DNA of 64,000 bases. Source: Catenuloplanes atrovinosus (lineage in GTDB: Bacteria; Actinomycetota; Actinomycetes; Mycobacteriales; Micromonosporaceae). Below are positions 2,190-12,288 of this stretch, piece by piece. A model generated the notes under the pieces. It was not told the DNA's origin, searched no databases, and saw only the letters and a list, made by a program, of their open reading frames with translations. Position numbers and translations under genes: made by a program. Within the stretch, counting starts at the first letter, position 1. Every line of letters begins with the position of its first letter. Where the stretch lies: positions 1,943,001 through 2,007,000 of the forward strand of contig NZ_JAVDYB010000001.1 of the NCBI RefSeq assembly GCF_031458235.1. The letters run 5' to 3'.

Positions 2190-3128
2190 ATGACCATCAA
2201 CTCGCACGTGACCGTGTTCGCCGGGCTGCCGGTGGTCCCGTCGGACAGTGACGTGAGGCCGGACGATCCGGCGGCGGTGGCCTGGCGCGTCGAGATCGAT
2301 GACTACGATCTCTCGCCCAAGGACTTCGAGGCCGCGATGGAGACCATGCTGGAGCGGGCCGGCGAGGGTGGACCGGTCGCGCTGGTGATCGGCCAGTGGG
2401 GCGGTGCGTACGAGGCGCCGCCGCCGATCGACCTGTTCGTGCGGCTGGCACCGCGCATGCCGCGGCTGCGGTCGTTCTTCCTCGGCGACCTCACGTTCGA
2501 GGAGTGTGAGATCTCCTGGATCCAGCACCGGGACATCGCGCCGCTGCTCGCGGCCTATCCGGCGCTGGAGCGGCTGGTCGTGCGCGGCACCGAGGGCCTG
2601 GAGATCGGGCGGGCGGCGGCGCACCCGTCGCTGCGCGACCTGGAGATCCAGTCCGGTGGCCTCCCGGCCGCGCTGCTGCGCTCCGTGTTCGCGCTGGAGC
2701 TGCCCGCGCTGGAGCGGCTGAACCTGTGGCTCGGCGTCGACTCGTACGGCGGGGACGTCGTGCTGGAGGATCTGGCGCCGCTGCTCGGCGCCGCCGACGA
2801 GGCCGCGACCCGCTGGCCCCGGCTCACCGCGCTCGGACTGCGCAACAGCGAGATCCAGGACGAGATCGCGGCCGCGGTCGCGCAGGCGCCGATCCTGCCC
2901 CGGCTGCGCGTGCTCGACCTGTCGCTCGGCACGTTCGGCGACGAGGGCGCGGAGTCGCTGCTCGCCGGTCCGCTCGACCACCTGCGGGAACTGGACCTGC
3001 ACCACCACTTCATGAGCCCGCAGGTCGCGCAGCGGCTGGTCGACGCGCTGCCGTCGGTGCGCGTCGACGTCACCGACCGGCAGGAGGCGCGCGGCGACTG
3101 GGGGCGCTTCGTCGAGGTGTCGGAGTGA
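2190..3128 (+). CDS. STM4015 family leucine-rich-repeat-like protein
   Basis: A 312-residue protein recognisable as the STM4015 family, named after a Salmonella locus and of unknown function. After an N-terminal part typical of the family (residues about 1-75, with YDLSPKDFEAAMETMLERA) come irregular leucine-rich units: LPRLRVLDLSLGTFGDEGAESLL, LRELDLHHHFMSPQ and ALERLNLWLGVDSYGG are segments of an LRR-type solenoid. No signal peptide or membrane segment is seen, so it should be cytoplasmic. It is the first gene of a five-gene run in which every later gene overlaps its predecessor, starting with GTGA at 3125-3128. An LRR solenoid in an enzyme cassette suggests a scaffold, a substrate-binding partner or the modified protein itself; that is inference. 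Confidence 0.85.
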   Translation: MTINSHVTVFAGLPVVPSDSDVRPDDPAAVAWRVEIDDYDLSPKDFEAAMETMLERAGEGGPVALVIGQWGGAYEAPPPIDLFVRLAPRMPRLRSFFLGDLTFEECEISWIQHRDIAPLLAAYPALERLVVRGTEGLEIGRAAAHPSLRDLEIQSGGLPAALLRSVFALELPALERLNLWLGVDSYGGDVVLEDLAPLLGAADEAATRWPRLTALGLRNSEIQDEIAAAVAQAPILPRLRVLDLSLGTFGDEGAESLLAGPLDHLRELDLHHHFMSPQVAQRLVDALPSVRVDVTDRQEARGDWGRFVEVSE

Positions 3129-4171
3129 CGGCGACGGCCGTGGTCGGCAACCCGGCCAACCGGCGGGTGACGATGTTCGCCGCGGCGGTGCGCGGCGCGG
3201 GCCTGCCGCCGCCGCGCGTCTATCCGTGGCGCGACGTGCTCACCGGCGGGCCGGTCCCGGGCGTGGGCGAGGCGGTGCGCGTCGACTCGCCCGGCGAGGA
3301 CGCGGAGGTCGGCCGGCTGCTGCGCGGCGCGACCGCCCCGGCGGAGCACGGCGAGATCACCGGCACGGCCGCGGCGCACGCGGGGCTGGGCGCGGCCCTG
3401 CGGCGGGTCGAGTCCGGCGGCGGCACGATGCTGGCCGCGCCGGAGGACGTGCTCACCATGGGTGACAAGCCGCGCTGTCACGCCGTGCTGTCCGCGCACG
3501 GCGTGCCGGTGCCGCCCGCGCTCCCGCCGGTGACCGGCTACGAGGCGCTCCGGGCGGCGATGCGCGCGGCCGGCTGGGCGCGCGTGTTCGTGAAGCCGTC
3601 CCACGGCTCGTCCGCCTCCGGCGTGCTCGCGCTCACCGCCGCGGGTGGTCGCGTCTCGGCGTTGACCAGCGTCGAGCGCGGCCCGGACGGGCGGCTGTTC
3701 AACAACCTGACCATCCGGCGGTACGAGCGGGAGGCCGACGTCGCGGCGATCGTGGACCGGCTGGCCGGCGACGGGCTGCACGTGGAGCGCTGGTTCCCGA
3801 AGGCGGGGGTGGACGGGCGCACGATCGACCTGCGCGTGGTGGTGATCGCGGGCGAGCCGCGGCACGTGGTGGTCCGGTCGAGCCGGTCGCCGCTGACGAA
3901 CCTGCACCTCGGCAACGCGCGCGGCGACGTGGCGGCGGCCCGTGAGCGGGCCGGGGCGGCGGGGTGGGGCGCGGCCATGGAGACGTGTGCCCGGGTGGGT
4001 GCGGTGTTCCCCCGTACCCTGATGGCCGGGGTCGATCTGATGTTCGACGCGCGCTGGCGGCGGCACGCGGTGGCCGAGGTCAACGCGTTCGGCGACCTGC
4101 TGCCCGGGGTGCTGCACCGGGGCGAGGACACCTACACCGCGCAGGTCCGGGCGGCGCTGTGCGCGGTCTGA
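3125..4171 (+). CDS. STM4014 family ATP-grasp-like protein
   Basis: This 348-residue protein matches the STM4014 family and has an ATP-grasp arrangement. A pre-ATP-grasp region is followed by GDKPRCHAVLSAHGVPVP (residue about 113 on), the nucleotide-binding FVKPSHGSSASGVLAL (about 155), IDLRVVVIAGEPRHVVVR, and the metal-binding end LMFDARWRRHAVAEVNAFGDLLPG (about 306-329; the E-x-N pair is typical). ATP-grasp enzymes join a carboxylate to an amine, thiol or hydroxyl through an acyl-phosphate. The GTG at 3125 overlaps the stop of the preceding gene (GTGA), so translation is likely coupled. Its substrate is unknown. In the cassette it would supply ligation chemistry next to two radical SAM enzymes. 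Confidence 0.88.
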   Translation: MTATAVVGNPANRRVTMFAAAVRGAGLPPPRVYPWRDVLTGGPVPGVGEAVRVDSPGEDAEVGRLLRGATAPAEHGEITGTAAAHAGLGAALRRVESGGGTMLAAPEDVLTMGDKPRCHAVLSAHGVPVPPALPPVTGYEALRAAMRAAGWARVFVKPSHGSSASGVLALTAAGGRVSALTSVERGPDGRLFNNLTIRRYEREADVAAIVDRLAGDGLHVERWFPKAGVDGRTIDLRVVVIAGEPRHVVVRSSRSPLTNLHLGNARGDVAAARERAGAAGWGAAMETCARVGAVFPRTLMAGVDLMFDARWRRHAVAEVNAFGDLLPGVLHRGEDTYTAQVRAALCAV

Positions 4172-4944
4172 TCCCGAGTCACGACCTGCTGTTCGTCACG
4201 CTGGACACGCTGCGCTACGACGTGGCCGCGCGGCAGTTTGCCGAGGGGCGCACGCCGACGCTGGCCGCGCTGCTGCCCGGCGGCTGGGAGCGGCGGCACA
4301 CGCCGGCCAGTTTCACGTACGCGGCGCACCATGCGTTCTTCGCCGGGTTCCTGCCGACGCCGGTCGCGCCCGGGCGGCATCCGCGGCCGTTCGCGGCCCG
4401 GTTCGCCGGCAGCGAGACGACCGGGCCGGACACCTGGGTGTTCGACGCCGCGGACCTGCCGGGCGCGCTCGCCGGCGCCGGCTACCACACGGTCTGCCTG
4501 GGCGGCGTCGGCTTCTTCAACCCGGGGGCGCCGCTCGGCCGGGTGCTGCCCGGGCTGTTCGCGGAGGCGCACTGGGAGCCCGCGTTCGGCGTGACCGCGC
4601 CGGACTGCGTGGACGCGCAGGCGGACCGGCTCGCGCAGATCATCGCCCGGCTGCCGGTGGAGCGGCCGCTCTTCACGTTTCTCAACGTTGCGGCGCTGCA
4701 CCAGCCGAACCGGCACTACCTGCCCGGCGCGGCGGACGACACGGTGGACAGCCACGCGGCCGCGCTGGAGTACGCCGATCGCGCGCTGAAACGCGTGTTC
4801 ACACTGGCCGGCGGGCGCGGGCGGCCCTGCCGGGTGATCATCTGCTCCGACCACGGCACGCTCTACGGCGAGGACGGGCACGTCGGGCACCGGGTCGCGC
4901 ACGAGGCCGTGTGGACCGTGCCGTACGGGGAGTTCACGCTGTGA
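4159..4944 (+). CDS. STM4013/SEN3800 family hydrolase (alkaline-phosphatase fold)
   Basis: A 261-residue member of the STM4013/SEN3800 family, a compact relative of sulfatases and phosphodiesterases in the alkaline phosphatase superfamily. Metal-binding signatures are visible: LFVTLDTLRYDVA (first Asp, residue about 16), then FLNVAALHQPN and the C-terminal IICSDHGTLYGEDGHVGHR (Asp-His about 231, His-x2-His later). The usual sulfatase Cys/Ser-x-Pro-x-Arg is not evident; the nucleophile may be a Thr/Ser in FTYAAHHAFFAG. There is no signal peptide, so a cytosolic phospho- or sulfo-ester hydrolase acting on a pathway intermediate is likely. The GTG start lies 13 bases inside the preceding gene; its own stop overlaps the next start (GTGA). 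Confidence 0.88.
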   Translation: MRGLIPSHDLLFVTLDTLRYDVAARQFAEGRTPTLAALLPGGWERRHTPASFTYAAHHAFFAGFLPTPVAPGRHPRPFAARFAGSETTGPDTWVFDAADLPGALAGAGYHTVCLGGVGFFNPGAPLGRVLPGLFAEAHWEPAFGVTAPDCVDAQADRLAQIIARLPVERPLFTFLNVAALHQPNRHYLPGAADDTVDSHAAALEYADRALKRVFTLAGGRGRPCRVIICSDHGTLYGEDGHVGHRVAHEAVWTVPYGEFTL

Positions 4945-6230
4945 CCGAGTCGCCGTACCAGGGATATCTCTACGCGTACCCGCACAAGACCGCCTATCGC
5001 CGGCTCGACCCGCGGCCCGCGCTCGCGGACGTGTGGGCGGGCGAGCGGCGGGACGCGCTGTTCGGCTACGTGCACGTGCCGTTCTGCGAGATGCGCTGCG
5101 GCTTCTGCAACCTGTTCACCCGGTCGAACCCGGCGGCCGGCCAGGTCACCGCGTACCTCGGCCGGCTGCGCGCGCAGACCCGCGCGGTCCGCGACGCGCT
5201 CGGGCCCGGCGTGCGGTTCGCCCGGACCGCGATCGGCGGCGGCACGCCCACCTACCTGACCGCGCCGGAGCTGACCGAGCTGTTCGAGATCGTCGGCTTC
5301 GGCGGCGGCGTGCCGCTGTCGGTGGAGACCTCGCCCGCGACCGCCACGCCGGACCGGCTGGCCGTGCTGGCCGCGCACGGCACCACCCGGGTCAGCATCG
5401 GCGTGCAGAGCTTCCTGGACGCGGAGGCGCGCGCGGCCGGGCGTCCGCAGCGGCGGGCCGAGGTGGAGGCCGCGCTGGCGGCGATCCGGGCGGCCGGCAT
5501 CCCGGTGCTCAACATCGACCTGATCTACGGCATCGACGGGCAGACGCCGGAGAGCTGGCGGCACAGCCTGGACGCGGCACTGGCCTGGCGGCCGGAGGAA
5601 CTGTACCTCTATCCGCTGTACGTGCGGCCGCTGACCGGGCTCGGGCGGCGCGCCCGCACCCGGGCGGACTGGGACGCGCAGCGGCTGGCGCTCTACCGGC
5701 AGGCGGTGGCGGTGCTGACCGGCGCGGGCTACGCCCAGCTGTCCATGCGGCAGTTCCGGCGCGCGGACGTGCCGGCCGACGACGGGCCGGACTACTGCTG
5801 CCAGGACGACGGCATGGTCGGGCTCGGCTGCGGCGCCCGGTCGTACACCACGTCGCTGCACTACTCGTTCGACTACGCGGTCACGGTCGGCGAGGTCCGC
5901 GCGGTGCTGGACGACTACCTGTCCCGGCCGGACGACGACTTCCGGTACGCGGAGTTCGGCTACCGGCTGGACGCGGCCGAGCAGCGGCGGCGCTGGCTGC
6001 TGAAGTCGCTGCTGCGCGCGGAGGGAGTGGCCGCGGCCGACTACCGGGCCCGGTTCGGCACCTCGCACCCGGACGACTTCCCGGAGCTCGCCGCGCTGGC
6101 CGGCCGCGGGTGGCTGGAGCCGGGACTCAACCGGCTCACCGCGGACGGGCTCGCCTGGTCGGACGCGATCGGGCCGCGGCTGGTGTCGGCGCCGGTGCGG
6201 GCCGCGATGGACGGGTACGCGCTGCGATGA
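4941..6230 (+). CDS. STM4012 family radical SAM protein (HemN-like)
   Basis: A 429-residue radical SAM enzyme of the STM4012 family, related to coproporphyrinogen dehydrogenase-like HemN proteins. The [4Fe-4S] cluster motif CEMRCGFC (CX3CX2C, Cys49/53/56) follows GYVHVPF, as in HemN. The SAM-binding GGGTPT and the VSIGVQSFLDAEAR and LNIDLIYGIDGQTPESW segments are also HemN-like. The C-terminal part (residues about 330-420) carries a HemN-type winged region (ADYRARFGTSHPDDF). A CCQDDGMVGLGCGARSY segment in the middle contains extra cysteines. True haem biosynthesis is unlikely in this context; the family's reaction is unknown. It starts on a GTG overlapping the previous stop and ends ATGA-coupled to the next gene. 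Confidence 0.92.
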   Translation: MTESPYQGYLYAYPHKTAYRRLDPRPALADVWAGERRDALFGYVHVPFCEMRCGFCNLFTRSNPAAGQVTAYLGRLRAQTRAVRDALGPGVRFARTAIGGGTPTYLTAPELTELFEIVGFGGGVPLSVETSPATATPDRLAVLAAHGTTRVSIGVQSFLDAEARAAGRPQRRAEVEAALAAIRAAGIPVLNIDLIYGIDGQTPESWRHSLDAALAWRPEELYLYPLYVRPLTGLGRRARTRADWDAQRLALYRQAVAVLTGAGYAQLSMRQFRRADVPADDGPDYCCQDDGMVGLGCGARSYTTSLHYSFDYAVTVGEVRAVLDDYLSRPDDDFRYAEFGYRLDAAEQRRRWLLKSLLRAEGVAAADYRARFGTSHPDDFPELAALAGRGWLEPGLNRLTADGLAWSDAIGPRLVSAPVRAAMDGYALR

Positions 6231-7087
6231 CCCCGCTGTACGTGCTCTACCGGGGGCCGCTGGCCAGCTGCAACTACGACTGCCCGTACTGCCCGTTCGC
6301 GAAGCGGGTGGACCCGCCGGCGACCCTGCGCGCGGACCGGGCGGCGCTGCTGCGCTTCGCGGACTGGGCCGAGGCGACCACGGACCGGCGGCTGTCCATC
6401 CTGTTCACGCCGTGGGGCGAGGGGCTGACCCGGCGCTGGTACCGGGAGACGATCACGCGGCTGTCGCACCTGCCGCACGTGGACCGGGTGGCGATCCAGA
6501 CCAACCTCGCGGCGCGGACCGGCTGGCTGGCCGCGGCGGACCGGTCCACCGCGGCGCTGTGGACCACGTACCACCCGGGGCAGGTGACCCGGGCGCGCTT
6601 CCTCGGGCGCTGCCGCGAACTGGACGCGCTGGGCGTGCGCTACTCGGTCGGGATCGTCGGGCTGCCCGAGCACCTGGCCGAGGCGCGGGAACTGCGCGCG
6701 CTGCTGCCGCCGCGCGTCTACCTGTGGGTGAACGCGGCGGACGGGCACGGCTACACCGCGGACGAGGAGGCGGCGTGGACCGCGCTCGACCCCCGGTTCG
6801 GCGACAGCGTGCGGCCGCACGTCTCGCGCGGGCTGCCCTGCCACGCGGGGGAGACCGCGATCTCCGTGCTCGGCGACGGTACGGTGCGGCGCTGCCACTT
6901 CGTGCCGTCGGTGATCGGGAATCTCTACGACGGTTCGTGGCGGGCCGCGCTCAAGCCCCGGGCCTGCCCGAACGCGGCCTGCGACTGCCACATCGGGTAC
7001 GTGCACCTCAAGCCGCTCGGCCTGCGCGAGGTCTACCGCGACGGGCTGATGGAACGCGTTGTCCACAGGCTCGAAGAATTTACGTAG
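6227..7087 (+). CDS. STM4011 family radical SAM protein with extra C-terminal cysteines
   Basis: This 286-residue protein is the last gene of the cassette. CNYDCPYC near the N terminus (Cys15/19/22) is the radical SAM cluster motif, and ILFTPWGEG is the SAM-binding region. The C-terminal third has a cysteine set (Cys205, 223, 247, 252 and 254; LPCHAGE, RRCHF, ACPNAACDCHIG) resembling a SPASM/Twitch-type auxiliary Fe-S domain, as in peptide- and protein-modifying enzymes. It starts at an ATGA overlap with the STM4012 gene. The reaction is unknown. Auxiliary cysteines plus a neighbouring ATP-grasp make a peptide or protein substrate plausible, but no small precursor gene is visible at either end of the cassette. 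Confidence 0.9.
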   Translation: MTPLYVLYRGPLASCNYDCPYCPFAKRVDPPATLRADRAALLRFADWAEATTDRRLSILFTPWGEGLTRRWYRETITRLSHLPHVDRVAIQTNLAARTGWLAAADRSTAALWTTYHPGQVTRARFLGRCRELDALGVRYSVGIVGLPEHLAEARELRALLPPRVYLWVNAADGHGYTADEEAAWTALDPRFGDSVRPHVSRGLPCHAGETAISVLGDGTVRRCHFVPSVIGNLYDGSWRAALKPRACPNAACDCHIGYVHLKPLGLREVYRDGLMERVVHRLEEFT

Positions 7088-7141
7088 GGGAGTATTCACA
7101 TGCGATAACGTGCCCCTGACTCGGTGCTCGGACGGGATCGC

Positions 7142-9046
7142 ATGGGGGATCGCATGGTGCGCAGGCTCGTGGTGATGTCGGTGACGGCGCTCGCCGTGGT
7201 GCTCGGAGCGGTCTCGCCCGGCCTCGCCGCCGGCCCCCGGCACATCCGCGGCACCGAGACCGTCCCGGTCTACGACTACGCGAGCGCCGTCCGGGAGACC
7301 GTGTGGGTGGAGTCGCCGCTCGACGGCGACGGCGCGCGCGACCGCATCGCGGCCGACATCGTCCGCCCGCGCGAGGCGACCACCCGGGTCCCCGTGATCA
7401 TGGAGGCCTCGCCCTACTACACCTGCTGCGGCCGGGGCAACGAGTCCGAGCTGAAGAAGTACGCGGCCGACGGCACGGTCGTGAGCATGCCGCTCTACTA
7501 CGACAACTACTTCGTCCCGCGGGGTTACGCGTTCGTCGGCGTCGACCTGTCCGGCACCGCGCGCTCCACCGGCTGCGAGGACGTCGGCGGCCCGGCCGAG
7601 GTCGCGTCCGCCAAGGCCGTGATCGACTGGCTGAACGGGCGCGGCACCGCGTTCACCGCGGACGGCCGCCGGGCCACCGCCTCCTGGACCACCGGCCGGG
7701 TCGGCATGATCGGCAAGTCCTGGGACGGTTCCGTCGCCAACGGCGTGGCCGCGACCGGCGTGCGCGGCCTGGAGACCATCGTCCCGATCGGCGCGATCTC
7801 CAGTTGGTACGACTACCAGCGCTACAACGGCATCCTGCGCACCCAGGAGTACGTGCGGTTCCTGCACTCCTACGTGAACGGCCGGCCCGCCGATGCCTGC
7901 GCGGACGAGTTGGCCGGGTGGCGCGCGGGCAGCGGCGAGACCACCGGCGACTTCACCGGCTACTGGGCCGCCCGGGACTACCGCCCCGACGCCCGCAACG
8001 TCCGGGCCAGCGTGTTCATCGCGCACGGCATCAACGACAAGAACGTCTCGACCCGCCAGTTCGGCCTGTGGTGGGACGCGCTCGCCCGGCACGGCGTGGA
8101 GCGCAAGCTGTGGCTGTTCCAGTCCGGCCACGAGGACCCGTTCGACGCGCGCCGCGCCGAGTGGGTGGACACGCTGCACCGCTGGTTCGACCACTACCTG
8201 CACGGCCTGCGCAACGGCATCGACCGCGAGCCACGCGCCACGCTCGAGACCGCGCCCGGCGTGTGGCAGGACGAGCGCGACTGGCCGGCCCGCGGCGTCC
8301 GCGACCGCACGCTGCCGCTCGGCGACGGCACGCTCGGCCTCGGCGCGGCCGGCCGCGGCGTCACCAAGACCTACACCGACGAGTCGCTGCGCGAGGACGC
8401 GCTGGTGGCCAACCCGTCCGCGGCCGTCCCCGGCCGGCTGGCGTTCCTCTCCGCGCCGCTGACCGCACCGCTGCGGATCTCCGGCGAGCCGTCCGTCACG
8501 CTGCGGATCAAGGTGGACCGGCCGACCGCGGCGCTGTCCGCACGCCTGGTCGACTACGGCACCGCGACCCGCGTCGACCACTTCCGCTCCGAGGGCCTGG
8601 TCAACCTGACCACCTCGTCCTGCTGGGGCGCCGCGTCCGCGACCGACGACGCCTGCTACCTGGACACCGCCGAGGTCACGGTCACCGGCGACCACGCGGT
8701 CCTGACCCGCGGCTGGGCCGACGCCGCCCACCACCGCTCGCTGCGCTTCAGCACCCCGCTGCTGCCCGACCGGTGGTACGACCTGACCATCCCGCTCAAC
8801 ACCTACGACGTGACGCTGCCCGCCGGGCACGTGCTCGGCCTGATCCTCGGCCAGTCCGACCCGCAGTTCACCGTCACGAACGACCAGAACGCCACGGTCT
8901 CGGTCGACGCGGGCCGCAGCAGCCTGACCCTCCCGGCCACCGGCGCCACCGTCATCGCCCCGGCCACCCCGCCCACCATCACCACCGGCCCCGGCGCGGC
9001 GGAGCGCCGCTCCGCGACCGACATCCCGATCGTTCCGCTGCGCTGA
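7142..9046 (+). CDS. Secreted CocE/NonD family alpha/beta hydrolase (X-Pro dipeptidyl-peptidase type)
   Basis: A roughly 634-residue exported hydrolase. An N-terminal signal peptide (VRRLVVMSVTALAVVLGA, cleavage after GLAAG) precedes a CocE/X-Pro dipeptidyl-peptidase S15 catalytic domain: VIMEASPYYTCCG, VDLSGTARSTG, the nucleophile elbow GMIGKSWDGSVANGVA, and a late His in FQSGHEDPF. The C-terminal part from about residue 430 (GRLAFLSAPLTAPLRISGEPSV) is the jelly-roll X-Pro C-terminal domain. Such enzymes cleave Xaa-Pro dipeptides, esters or amides. The start could be GTG 7124, ATG 7142 or ATG 7154; 7142 has GACGGGA upstream, while 7154 follows GGGGGA. A 9-bp hairpin follows the stop at 9082. 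It is not obviously part of the preceding cassette. Confidence 0.9.
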   Translation: MGDRMVRRLVVMSVTALAVVLGAVSPGLAAGPRHIRGTETVPVYDYASAVRETVWVESPLDGDGARDRIAADIVRPREATTRVPVIMEASPYYTCCGRGNESELKKYAADGTVVSMPLYYDNYFVPRGYAFVGVDLSGTARSTGCEDVGGPAEVASAKAVIDWLNGRGTAFTADGRRATASWTTGRVGMIGKSWDGSVANGVAATGVRGLETIVPIGAISSWYDYQRYNGILRTQEYVRFLHSYVNGRPADACADELAGWRAGSGETTGDFTGYWAARDYRPDARNVRASVFIAHGINDKNVSTRQFGLWWDALARHGVERKLWLFQSGHEDPFDARRAEWVDTLHRWFDHYLHGLRNGIDREPRATLETAPGVWQDERDWPARGVRDRTLPLGDGTLGLGAAGRGVTKTYTDESLREDALVANPSAAVPGRLAFLSAPLTAPLRISGEPSVTLRIKVDRPTAALSARLVDYGTATRVDHFRSEGLVNLTTSSCWGAASATDDACYLDTAEVTVTGDHAVLTRGWADAAHHRSLRFSTPLLPDRWYDLTIPLNTYDVTLPAGHVLGLILGQSDPQFTVTNDQNATVSVDAGRSSLTLPATGATVIAPATPPTITTGPGAAERRSATDIPIVPLR

Positions 9047-9424: not shown

Positions 9425-10552
9425 TCAGGGGAAGGTGACGGAGTGGGCCTCGGTGGGGTCGGGGGATTCCCATTTGGTGATCAGGCGGTCGATGACCGTG
9501 GCGGGGACCGGGGACGGGCGGGCCGCGTTCTGGCGGTGGATCACCGAGCGAGGCGCTTCCAGGGCGACGATCGAGATGCGGGCGTGGTAGGCGGCGCCCA
9601 GGGAGATGCAGAGATCGCGGTGCTGGCGGGTGATGTTGGTGGCGTTCCAGACGAAGTCGCGGCGGGCGCGCAGGTGGACGCGTGCCTCGGCGTGGGCGGC
9701 CGCGGCCACGGGGCGCTGGTTGTCGGTGGGGGAGATGCCGAGTCGGGTGCGGATCGCGTCGAGGCTGACGATGGGGCGGTCGCCGGCGTGGCGGGACAGC
9801 CAGGTGTCCTTGCCGACGCCGGGCAGGCCGGACAGCACGGTCATCGTCAGGCGGGTGTCGTCGAAGGCGGCGTAGCGCGGGTCGCGGCCGGGGGTGCGGA
9901 AGTAGGTGAAGCGGGCGTGGTCCGAGGCGAACGGCCACGGCGAGTCGAGCACACCCAGGTCGGCGCAGTATTCGCGGAACAGCGCGATGTTCTCCAGCAC
10001 CCGGTCCAGGTCGGCGCAGACGCGGCCGGTGATGTCGGCGGTGGCGAGCATGGCCAGGTCGCGGTTGCGCGTCACCAGGCTCGCGCGCAGCACGATCTGC
10101 TCCAGGTCGGGTCGTTCCAGCGCCCAGAACGGCACCTGGTGGTGCCGGACCAGCGCGGCCACGTGTTCCCGCCAGGCGCGCGGTGCGCCGAGGTCCCACA
10201 GGATGCGGCGGGCGGCCAGGTCGCCGCGCCGGGAGTGGCCGTGGGCGGTGATCCGGCCGTCGGGGTCGGTGCGGGTGCAGTCCGGCTTGGCCACGTCGTG
10301 CAGCAGGACGGCGGCGAACAGCCGCACCCGCTCGTCCTCGGGGAGCGCACGCCACTGTGGTTGCGCGGCGAGCGCGGACGCGGCCATGAACGTGTGCGTG
10401 GCCACGTCGCCCTCGCCGTGGTGCAGCGGGTCCTGGGGTACGCCGTCCAGCCGCCGGATCCAGTCGAACTCCGCCACGATCCGCGGCCACGGCACCGTCC
10501 ATGATGGAGCGGCCGGGCACAGCGCGGCGAACACCGTCCAGTCAGACCGCAT
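9425..10552 (-). CDS. HD domain-polynucleotide kinase (HD-Pnk-like end-healing enzyme)
   Basis: A 375-residue bifunctional protein. The N-terminal half is an HD phosphohydrolase: His53, LLHDVAKPD (His85-Asp86), HGH at 104-106 and HH at 137-138. The C-terminal half is a P-loop kinase: VLSGLPGVGKDTWLSR (Walker A at 242-250), SLDAIRTRLG and FVWNATNITRQHR, the latter typical of polynucleotide kinase-like proteins. The order (HD phosphoesterase then 5'-OH kinase) matches the described HD-Pnk enzymes, which remove 2',3'-phosphates and phosphorylate 5'-OH ends of broken RNA. Its ATG at 10552 overlaps the end of the RNA ligase gene by 11 bases, so the two are translationally coupled. Alternative reading: a generic HD/AAA protein, but the ligase neighbour favours repair. 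Confidence 0.82.
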   Translation of the reverse strand: MRSDWTVFAALCPAAPSWTVPWPRIVAEFDWIRRLDGVPQDPLHHGEGDVATHTFMAASALAAQPQWRALPEDERVRLFAAVLLHDVAKPDCTRTDPDGRITAHGHSRRGDLAARRILWDLGAPRAWREHVAALVRHHQVPFWALERPDLEQIVLRASLVTRNRDLAMLATADITGRVCADLDRVLENIALFREYCADLGVLDSPWPFASDHARFTYFRTPGRDPRYAAFDDTRLTMTVLSGLPGVGKDTWLSRHAGDRPIVSLDAIRTRLGISPTDNQRPVAAAAHAEARVHLRARRDFVWNATNITRQHRDLCISLGAAYHARISIVALEAPRSVIHRQNAARPSPVPATVIDRLITKWESPDPTEAHSVTFP

Positions 10553-11309
10553 ACATCACCGCCGGGTCCGCGAGCCGGTTCGCCATGAGCGGCCGGTCGG
10601 CCCAGTGCGTCCCGGAGTCGAGCACGGCCTGGGTGAACCCGGCGCGCACCCATTTGTAGCGGGCGACCACCCGGCCGCCCTCCTCATCTTTGATGTAGAG
10701 CCCCTCCATGTCGTCGCCGGCGTCCGCGAGACCGGCGTCGACACCGGCGTCCGCGGCGGCGGCGCGGAGGGCGTCGCGCCATCCGGGCGTACGGACCGTG
10801 GACGGCCCGGCCAGTGAGGTGAGCGCGGACAGCGACGGGAACGTGCCGGACCGCAGCACCGGCACGCTCACCACCGGCGTGCCGGCCAGCATCGCGCGCC
10901 GGGACGGCGTGTCCAGGAAGGCGCCGGTCTCCCGGTCCAGGATGTCGAACTCGCAGAAGTAGTGCGGCAGCGCGTCGTAGAAGACCGTGTGCGTGGCGTA
11001 CATCCACTCGCCGTACATCACGAACCGGTCGCGCAGCACCGGCCGCAGGATCGGTGCCACCGTCGACGCCCAGGACTTCAGCGGCGCGAACTGCCGCTCC
11101 CGCGGCCCACCGGTGAGATAGTGGCCGCGGGACTGGAGCCGCAGCGCGCCGTCCGCGGTGAAGCTGATCGCCGCGTTCGCGCCGTCGAGCTTCTCCTCGA
11201 CGACCAGCCACCGGCCGCGCAGCGCGGCGAACGGCGTCTGCGACAGGTCCTCGTCGCCCGGCTGGAGGCGGGAGCCGGCCAGGTGCGGGGTCCGCGGATA
11301 CTTGACCAT
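10542..11309 (-). CDS. RNA ligase family protein
   Basis: A nucleotidyltransferase of the ATP-dependent RNA ligase superfamily, about 255 residues from the ATG at 11309. Motif I is EKLDGANAAI with Lys40 as the expected AMP-accepting lysine. FVMYGEWMYATHTVFY corresponds to motif III, EGLYIKDEEG to motif IV, and ARYKWVRAGF to motif V. It would seal the ends prepared by the kinase/HD protein encoded immediately downstream in the same operon. The opening MVKYPRTPHLAGSRLQPGDEDL is what I expect of this family, so I chose this ATG. The frame stays open upstream to 11513, but that stretch overlaps the promoter region of the divergent gene. A leaderless GTG at 11312 is also possible. Confidence 0.85.
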   Translation of the reverse strand: MVKYPRTPHLAGSRLQPGDEDLSQTPFAALRGRWLVVEEKLDGANAAISFTADGALRLQSRGHYLTGGPRERQFAPLKSWASTVAPILRPVLRDRFVMYGEWMYATHTVFYDALPHYFCEFDILDRETGAFLDTPSRRAMLAGTPVVSVPVLRSGTFPSLSALTSLAGPSTVRTPGWRDALRAAAADAGVDAGLADAGDDMEGLYIKDEEGGRVVARYKWVRAGFTQAVLDSGTHWADRPLMANRLADPAVMYAV

Positions 11310-11463
11310 CACGACCGTGTTTGTACAGGCCGGACGGTCGGCCCGCGACGGATTTAGCGGCCGAAGTGGGATTCCCAATGCACAGATCCTGCGTAAAAGT
11401 GGTACGAAAGTCCGATACCTGACTGTCGGATCATCCAGGTCCCAGTAGAACTCAGGGGTGCCG

Positions 11464-12288
11464 ATGTACGTCTGGGTGGCCGGAGTGCTGGCCGTCGCCG
11501 CGGGTGCCTTCATGGTCGTGTCGCTGCTGACGCTGCACGCGGTGCGGCGGGAGCGCGCGCTGCTCGCCGCCGCGCGGGCGGTGGCGGCGACCTCCGAGGC
11601 GCCGGAGGGCTCCGCCTACGCGGGCGCCGGCCTGCTGGCGGACGAGAACGTGGCGGCCGGTGCCATGCTCGGGACGATCCTCGAGGCCGACGTGGCCGCG
11701 CTCAACGCCCGCCTCAGTGCGGCGCGCACCGGCGTGGCCGATCTCGGCGCCAAGGCCGAGCTGGACCGCGTCGCGGACAAGCTGCGCGAGGCGACCACGG
11801 AGGCACACCTGTGGCGTACCGTGCCGGACGGCCGCGAGCACCTGCGGGCCGCGACCGGCGCGCTGGCGTCCGCGGGCCGGCACCTGGCGCGCGCCACCGC
11901 GCGGGCCGTCGGCCGGCCGGAGCCCGCGGACGCGCCGCCGTGCCTGGCCGATCCGGCGCACGGGCCCGCCGCCGCGGAGGTGACCTGGGCGCCGGACGGC
12001 GGCGTGCCGCGGCGCATCCCGGTGTGCGAGGCAGACTACGCCCGGATCTCCGCGGGACGCTCCGCCGCCGTCCGCTCGATCATCGGGCCCGGTGGCCAGC
12101 AGCCCTACTACGACACCCCCGCGTACGGTGACTGGCTGCTCGGCTACTTCACCGGCTACGACCCCTACCTGGTCGCCCGGCTGCTGGACGGCACGGTCCT
12201 CGGCCGCCAGCTCCCCGGCCGCATCACCGGGCGCGCGCGGTCCGCCGGCGGCTCCAGCGGCGAGTTCGGCACCGTCCACTTCGCCTGA
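11464..12288 (+). CDS. Single-pass membrane protein of unknown function
   Basis: The 274-residue product starts with one hydrophobic segment (VWVAGVLAVAAGAFMVVSLL) and then a soluble, alanine-rich helical region (about 45-160) that may form a coiled coil. The C-terminal part has CLADPAHGPAAAEVTWAP...RRIPVCEADYARI, a Cys-x5-His / Cys arrangement that may bind a metal or form a disulphide, followed by aromatic YYDTPAYGDWLLGYFTGYDPY. I recognise this as an actinobacterial hypothetical but know no function. ATG 11464 is preferred over GTG 11458 because CAGGGG sits six bases upstream of it. It diverges from the RNA ligase operon and may share its regulatory region. Confidence 0.75.
   Translation: MYVWVAGVLAVAAGAFMVVSLLTLHAVRRERALLAAARAVAATSEAPEGSAYAGAGLLADENVAAGAMLGTILEADVAALNARLSAARTGVADLGAKAELDRVADKLREATTEAHLWRTVPDGREHLRAATGALASAGRHLARATARAVGRPEPADAPPCLADPAHGPAAAEVTWAPDGGVPRRIPVCEADYARISAGRSAAVRSIIGPGGQQPYYDTPAYGDWLLGYFTGYDPYLVARLLDGTVLGRQLPGRITGRARSAGGSSGEFGTVHFA

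Follow-up and report, generated by a model that had tools for sequence, protein, structure and literature searches.

In amino-group carrier proteins it is the gamma-carboxylate of a C-terminal glutamate that is loaded, with acidic residues docking the enzymes (PMC9303977). RimK extends the C-terminus of ribosomal protein S6 (PMC10092738), and the pearlins (3-thiaglutamate, 3-thiahomoleucine, ammosamide) are built at the C-terminus of a ribosomal carrier, radical S-adenosylmethionine (SAM) steps included (PMC9303977). Here, we describe a five-gene cassette found in a window of 64,000 nucleotides (the whole stretch of DNA that was analysed; contig NZ_JAVDYB010000001.1, positions 1,943,001 to 2,007,000) from the actinomycete Catenuloplanes atrovinosus, whose 8.9 Mb genome is a single contig. 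The cassette encodes a leucine-rich repeat (LRR) protein, STM4015, followed by an ATP-grasp ligase (STM4014), a hydrolase of the alkaline phosphatase superfamily (STM4013) and two radical SAM enzymes (STM4012 and STM4011). On balance, we think it probable that the cassette enzymes assemble a chemical group on the tail at the C-terminus of STM4015, with STM4014 ligating at the terminal glutamate. Comparison of sequences and structures establishes the co-inheritance of the five genes, the conservation of the tail, the enzyme group of the ligase and its coupling to STM4015, and the question is narrowed to one residue: the last glutamate of STM4015.

A sequence-only reading of this DNA had described five overlapping genes on one strand at 2190-7087, encoding an LRR protein, an ATP-grasp enzyme, an alkaline-phosphatase-fold enzyme and two radical SAM enzymes. 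The positions and all four overlaps were verified (GTGA at 3125-3128, 13 bases at 4159-4171, GTGA at 4941-4944 and ATGA at 6227-6230), and all five proteins score above the curated NCBIfam cut-off of their model, the threshold by which family membership was assigned (Table 1). The grouping does not arise by chance: the LRR protein and four enzymes of different folds match the families of a consecutive Salmonella locus. None of the five families has a second copy above cut-off in this genome. The family models (NF038076, NF038074, NF038075, NF006067 and NF038073) carry names only, with no function assigned, and for the function of the cassette the open-licence literature, which lacks many journals, gave only passing mentions of the locus tags.

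The end of STM4015 is its most telling part. Among 110 non-redundant STM4015 sequences (<80% identity), the terminal Glu312 is invariant in 109, and it is the only charged residue of the seven invariant positions of the protein; over all copies, 155 of 159 have Glu as the last residue. In all intact cassette copies a linker, acidic in most, leads into the pattern [R]-[YF]-[VIT]-[AS]-V-[SAG]-E, with which the protein ends. The mean entropy in the same 110 sequences is 1.14 bits for the tail, 1.46 for the LRR part and 2.34 for the linker (residues 291-304), where acidic minus basic residues average +4.5 per 14 residues versus +1.3 for the whole protein. The entropy of the C-terminal residue itself is 0.06 bits in STM4015, 1.14 in STM4012 and 3.0-3.5 in STM4014, STM4013 and STM4011, and a tail of this kind is present on only 2 of the 22,751 other open reading frames of the same loci. 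It is kept in Actinomycetota, Deinococcus, Myxococcota, Planctomycetota, Paenibacillus, Methylobacterium, Salmonella, Bacteroides and Calothrix, the distant versions reading YMNAMYTE (Salmonella), WRYPSLTE (Paenibacillus), WYYPMITE (Bacteroides) and DRYCSVAE (Calothrix). Moreover, a locus can hold from one to six STM4015 paralogues; in tandem pairs, whose copies are about 61% identical, both members have the tail. STM4015 copies encoded far from a cassette have it too, as in S. cadmiisoli (L143) and Embleya (L147), also when the distance amounts to hundreds of kilobases or more. The STM4015 ends without Glu that were inspected are mostly broken or fragmentary frames, together with a Catenulispora copy that ends in GIGA. 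A candidate orphan without the tail, L024, was discarded as a broken copy.

In the AlphaFold2 model of STM4015, the LRR body averages above 90 in pLDDT (predicted local distance difference test), residues 301-310 average 76 and the final two drop to 43. A solved homologue is 2RA8 (Q64V53, Bacteroides fragilis; E 9e-40, and Z 32.6 against the model), a structural-genomics entry without assigned function. This WGR-LRR homologue of STM4015 bears the tail, its construct ending in SYPMITE ahead of the tag, and unlike our STM4015 it has an additional WGR-like region at the N-terminus. That crystal may hold the tail in ordered form, as the structural alignment extends to the end of the tail and into the tag, up to residue 357. 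Several polar and aromatic positions of the LRR body are also conserved (E107, S109, W110, R132, W180, Y186 and H272), a pattern that suits a single shared docking surface better than a diversifying recognition surface.

The relatives of the ligase point to the same residue. A profile of STM4014 searched against the PDB finds LysX first (E 2.5e-5) and RimK next, and its AlphaFold2 model (pLDDT 93.2) has the ArgX-LysW complex 3vpb as best Foldseek match (E 2.4e-14). By Z, the model reaches 25.2 with ArgX-LysW, 24.5 with LysX/ArgX bound to LysW-gamma-AAA, 24.3 with LysX and 23.6 with RimK; since differences below 1 count as ties, the model places STM4014 in the LysX/ArgX/RimK group and singles out no enzyme within it. 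The catalytic residues are conserved, and R237, R251 and N259 align with the LysX residues around the amino-acid substrate. The LRR protein had been suggested earlier to be either the scaffold or the modified substrate, and this idea gains support from the invariant Glu-ending tail and from the ATP-grasp relatives that act on a C-terminal Glu.

Five loci, four from Actinoplanes and one from Sinosporangium, have no STM4014 between STM4015 and STM4013 and keep the tail. If the tail serves STM4014, each of these genomes should retain the ligase, and this held in 5 of 5: STM4014 is encoded above cut-off elsewhere (in A. palleronii as a gene interrupted by contig ends). For this reason we do not take these loci as counter-examples. 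In all five, this ligase gene adjoins a second STM4015 gene, and the pair is on a contig other than that of the cassette where the two can be compared. Thus, STM4015 and STM4014 form a transferable pair.

The remaining genes travel with this pair. Among 61 relatives, STM4015, STM4014, STM4012 and STM4011 are above cut-off in one and the same set of 15 genomes, and STM4013 in those 15 plus one more. Among 159 genomes sampled evenly over the phylum and scored for four families (all except STM4012), STM4015, STM4014, STM4013 and STM4011 are above cut-off in the same 3 genomes. The five families thus co-occur, and their being mostly apart, which would have refuted the earlier reading, was seen in neither sample. 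We also collected 80 loci by an STM4013 scan of species-level genomes, a sample weighted towards close relatives (73 Actinomycetota, 6 Myxococcota, 1 Planctomycetota). All five families were detected in 72 of them by hidden Markov models and in one further locus by tblastn, and the order 4015-4014-4013-4012-4011 is held across the 80 except in Myxococcus and Corallococcus, where 4014-4015 is a separate unit on the opposite strand. Plasmid records extend the range to Salmonella, Paenibacillus, Deinococcus, Methylobacterium, Bacteroides and Calothrix; one cassette gene alone has more than 560 relatives in species-level genomes, and these span at least seven phyla, plasmid matches included.

Some of these plasmid records are of a particular kind. 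The one from Bacteroides finegoldii (L141 7773-11790) carries a cassette decayed by internal loss, with remnants of STM4013 and STM4012, which retains a WGR-STM4015, STM4014 and an STM4011-HAD fusion. The Salmonella records (L040 and L046) hold a chromosome-like region with sulfoquinovose genes, the cassette, typA, glnALG and hemN. A search of viral contigs for STM4012 relatives found none, so viral carriage of the cassette was set aside. The cassette was likewise dismissed as a known anti-phage defence system, PADLOC models giving one weak generic radical SAM match and nothing for the other proteins.

The other three enzymes suggest what chemistry could follow the ligation. Judged from its profile matches to HemN (1olt, E 3.8e-54) and to the methyltransferase NocN (9p2u, E 8e-33), STM4012 is a homologue of both, from the HemN-like class C radical SAM methyltransferase group. 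The C-terminal part of STM4011 matches the SPASM enzyme SkfB weakly (E 0.0021), and the Pfam SPASM model stays below its cut-off. STM4013 matches the nucleotide pyrophosphatase/phosphodiesterase (NPP) 7n1s (E 5.4e-7); it was rejected as a sulfatase, as it lacks the formylglycine motif (C/S)-x-P-x-R and its site reads SFTYAAH, where the Thr lines up with the nucleophile of NPP. Because catalytic residues are kept in all the enzymes, the pathway is likely to be active.

We could then propose the following route. STM4014 would activate the C-terminal Glu carboxylate of STM4015 as an acyl phosphate and couple it to a small-molecule amine, probably that of an amino acid given the alignment of R237, R251 and N259 with the substrate-surrounding residues of LysX; this is the best supported step. 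With moderate confidence, STM4012 and STM4011 may then modify the tethered group, or else the adjacent Tyr/Phe, by radical chemistry. More speculatively, STM4013 might hydrolyse or transfer a phosphoester, with Thr53 as the nucleophile. A haloacid dehalogenase (HAD) phosphatase joins the set in Salmonella, where its gene overlaps the end of STM4011, and in Bacteroides finegoldii, where the domain is fused to STM4011, and this genomic association suggests a phosphorylated intermediate. The LRR solenoid would act as a docking body common to the enzymes. We lean towards a group that stays on the LRR protein rather than being released, because a locus holds between one and six divergent paralogues and because copies are also encoded in trans; several paralogues fit an end-product protein better than a mere carrier. 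It is tempting to speculate, although we regard this as a tentative and rather uncertain proposal, that the cassette represents a new class of carrier-tethered biosynthesis, in which an LRR protein replaces LysW, its Glu is loaded by an ATP-grasp enzyme, two radical SAM enzymes make either a product or a cofactor-like group that is permanent, and the LRR paralogues all receive that same group.

Several observations weigh against a group built on the tail. A full-length STM4015 paralogue away from the cassette in Catenuloplanes japonicus (L036 8898-10661), a species of the same genus, lacks the tail and is the one clear exception. The C-termini of two partner proteins found at other loci, a DUF6745 protein and a small protein, are likewise conserved, and the conserved C-terminus of STM4015 could be a docking motif and not a reaction site. 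The cassette tail RFVEVSE (RYVAVSE-like) also differs from the EDWGE-type tail of LysW. The ATP-grasp fold is widely shared, with Z values for STM4014 of 23.6 for RimK, 22.6 for glutathione synthetase and 21.3 for Ddl, and the set contains no protease or transporter. In addition, some family members stand apart from the cassette. STM4013 is alone in one genome of the 61 (G035) and has no cassette genes nearby in two Micromonosporaceae loci (L089 10001-10786 and L153 9119-9904); solitary STM4012-like genes occur on the Streptomyces SAT1 plasmid (L048 7947-9329) and in a genome of the same genus (L154 9062-10357), where the gene is a second copy scoring 276 bits, below the cut-off; and a metagenome actinomycete (L115) has 4014-4013-4012-4011 with no STM4015 within 9 kb upstream.

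The same five proteins could be read in other ways. The cassette could resemble those for ribosomally synthesized and post-translationally modified peptides (RiPPs), with the LRR protein as an oversized leader and the tail as the core, cyclised internally by the ATP-grasp enzyme as in graspetides, modified by the radical SAM enzymes and released as a peptide. Foldseek ranks the graspetide ligase PsnB among the top matches of STM4014 (E 1e-12), SPASM enzymes are common in ATP-grasp peptide loci (PMC8939145) and the tandem STM4015 copies resemble precursors. However, ArgX and LysX outscore PsnB by Foldseek, and no PsnB chain is in the top 50 by Z. The tail moreover has one conserved carboxylate and no conserved Thr, Ser or Lys partner for it, and a protease, transporter or RRE/PqqD domain was detected in none of the five proteins, so that we consider a peptide product unlikely. 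We give a similarly low chance to a RimK-like activity, in which STM4014 would extend the C-terminus of STM4015 by a regulatory tail of amino acids such as Glu while the radical SAM enzymes and the hydrolase use a separate small-molecule substrate, since it leaves the joint inheritance of 4015-4014 with 4013-4012-4011 unexplained.

It could also be that the tail does no more than signal docking or degradation and that the four enzymes make a free small molecule, with STM4015 as scaffold or sensor. C-terminal short linear motifs often bind partners, LRR is a common binding fold and STM4013 is found without STM4015; yet a docking motif does not require an invariant residue with a free carboxylate at the exact end (109 of 110), and the linked ligase comes from a group that acts on C-terminal Glu residues, which makes this account quite improbable. 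Finally, Pup is conjugated through its C-terminal Glu, and the Glu of STM4015 might in the same manner be joined to amines of other proteins. We find this hardly credible, as the Pup ligase PafA is glutamine-synthetase-like and not an ATP-grasp enzyme, and as two radical SAM enzymes would be left unexplained.

Beyond the five families, a DUF6745 gene and a gene for a protein of about 100 amino acids without a Pfam family adjoin the cassette in 54 of the 80 loci, upstream or downstream and on either strand. The earlier remark that the set has no small precursor gene beside it stands for this window; in other genomes, these two genes flank it. The search for a sixth conserved gene shows that sixth and seventh genes exist in other genomes (DUF6745 with the ~100-amino-acid protein, and the HAD phosphatase), none of them present in this cassette. 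The DUF6745 pair was rejected as core, and its small protein is unlikely to be a precursor, because this genome has no DUF6745 gene and the pair is found by itself in Deinococcus ficus, Skermanella and Microcystis phage LMM01. In Deinococcus ficus the pair is accompanied by a VWA protein, and in the phage (L146 4968-6499) the ~100-amino-acid 'GEVTGHAH...REYxP' protein (phrog_27831) is encoded beside a DUF6745-like gene. Among the clusters inspected, an all-against-all blastp for further conserved neighbours gave only strand-shadow reading frames and the DUF6745 region. Downstream of the cassette, the X-Pro peptidase gene (7124-9046) was excluded as a sixth member, being next to it only within the genus. 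A sigma-70 promoter scan gave no match, as expected for such a genome. The window also holds, on the minus strand at 9428-11513, a genus-conserved pair reminiscent of RNA repair: a P-loop kinase (AAA_33), whose N-terminal part was judged HD-like by eye, and next to it an RNA ligase (PF09414).

Table 1. Cassette genes and sites in the window (positions count from the first nucleotide of the window)
Feature	Position	Strand	Remarks
STM4015-family LRR protein, 312 aa	2190..3128	+	proposed carrier/substrate; NF038076, 322.6 bits (cut-off 275)
STM4015 variable linker, residues 291-305	3060..3104	+	acidic family-wide (entropy, charge)
STM4015 conserved tail RFVEVSE, residues 306-312; Glu312 is the proposed ligation site	3105..3125	+	
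STM4014-family ATP-grasp ligase, 348 aa	3125..4171	+	NF038074, 421 bits (cut-off 175)
STM4014 residues 258-266, TNLHLGNAR, equivalent to LysX 'ITNTARGG'	3896..3922	+	T258, N259, L260 and L262 invariant
STM4014 metal-binding region, D304 to N320	4034..4084	+	D304 and N320 invariant, E318 nearly
STM4013-family alkaline-phosphatase-superfamily hydrolase, 261 aa	4159..4944	+	NF038075, 379 bits (cut-off 250)
STM4013 Thr53, likely nucleophile	4315..4317	+	invariant; in register with the Thr of NPP 'SLTFPNH'
STM4012-family HemN-like radical SAM enzyme, 429 aa	4941..6230	+	NF006067, 596 bits (cut-off 380)
STM4012 CxxxCxxC, C49-C53-C56	5085..5108	+	all three Cys invariant
STM4011-family radical SAM enzyme with SPASM-like C-terminal cysteines, 286 aa	6227..7087	+	NF038073, 387 bits (cut-off 200)
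STM4011 CxxxCxxC, C15-C19-C22	6269..6292	+	invariant
STM4011 auxiliary-cluster cysteines C205, C223, C247, C252, C254	6839..6988	+	invariant

If our proposal is right, the cassette would add a new type of carrier to the few pathways that work on a protein C-terminus, would tie LRR proteins to radical SAM chemistry and would account for a gene set conserved in Salmonella and in many antibiotic-producing actinomycetes. Among the known systems, the pearlins share with it the idea of a C-terminal carrier, whereas the cassette has an ATP-grasp ligase and a much larger carrier; as neither Pfam nor NCBIfam finds a peptide aminoacyl-tRNA ligase (PEARL) domain in the five proteins, it was rejected as a pearlin pathway. 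RimK, acting on ribosomal protein S6, is an ATP-grasp enzyme that extends a protein C-terminus, as proposed here for STM4014, which in contrast is tied to four other genes and has an LRR partner. The amino-group carrier systems (LysW with LysX/ArgX, and Vzb22 in vazabitide/DADH biosynthesis) have in common with the cassette a C-terminal Glu after an acidic stretch and a LysX/ArgX-type ATP-grasp enzyme paired with the carrier, and in them further enzymes act on the tethered group, a likeness that we propose for the cassette too. Here, by contrast, the carrier is a 312-amino-acid LRR protein and not a small acidic LysW, its paralogues are often several, and modification would fall to two radical SAM enzymes and a hydrolase of the alkaline phosphatase fold. 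By analogy, then, the cassette would work like an amino-group carrier system, although it should not be filed as one, because its carrier is not LysW-like.

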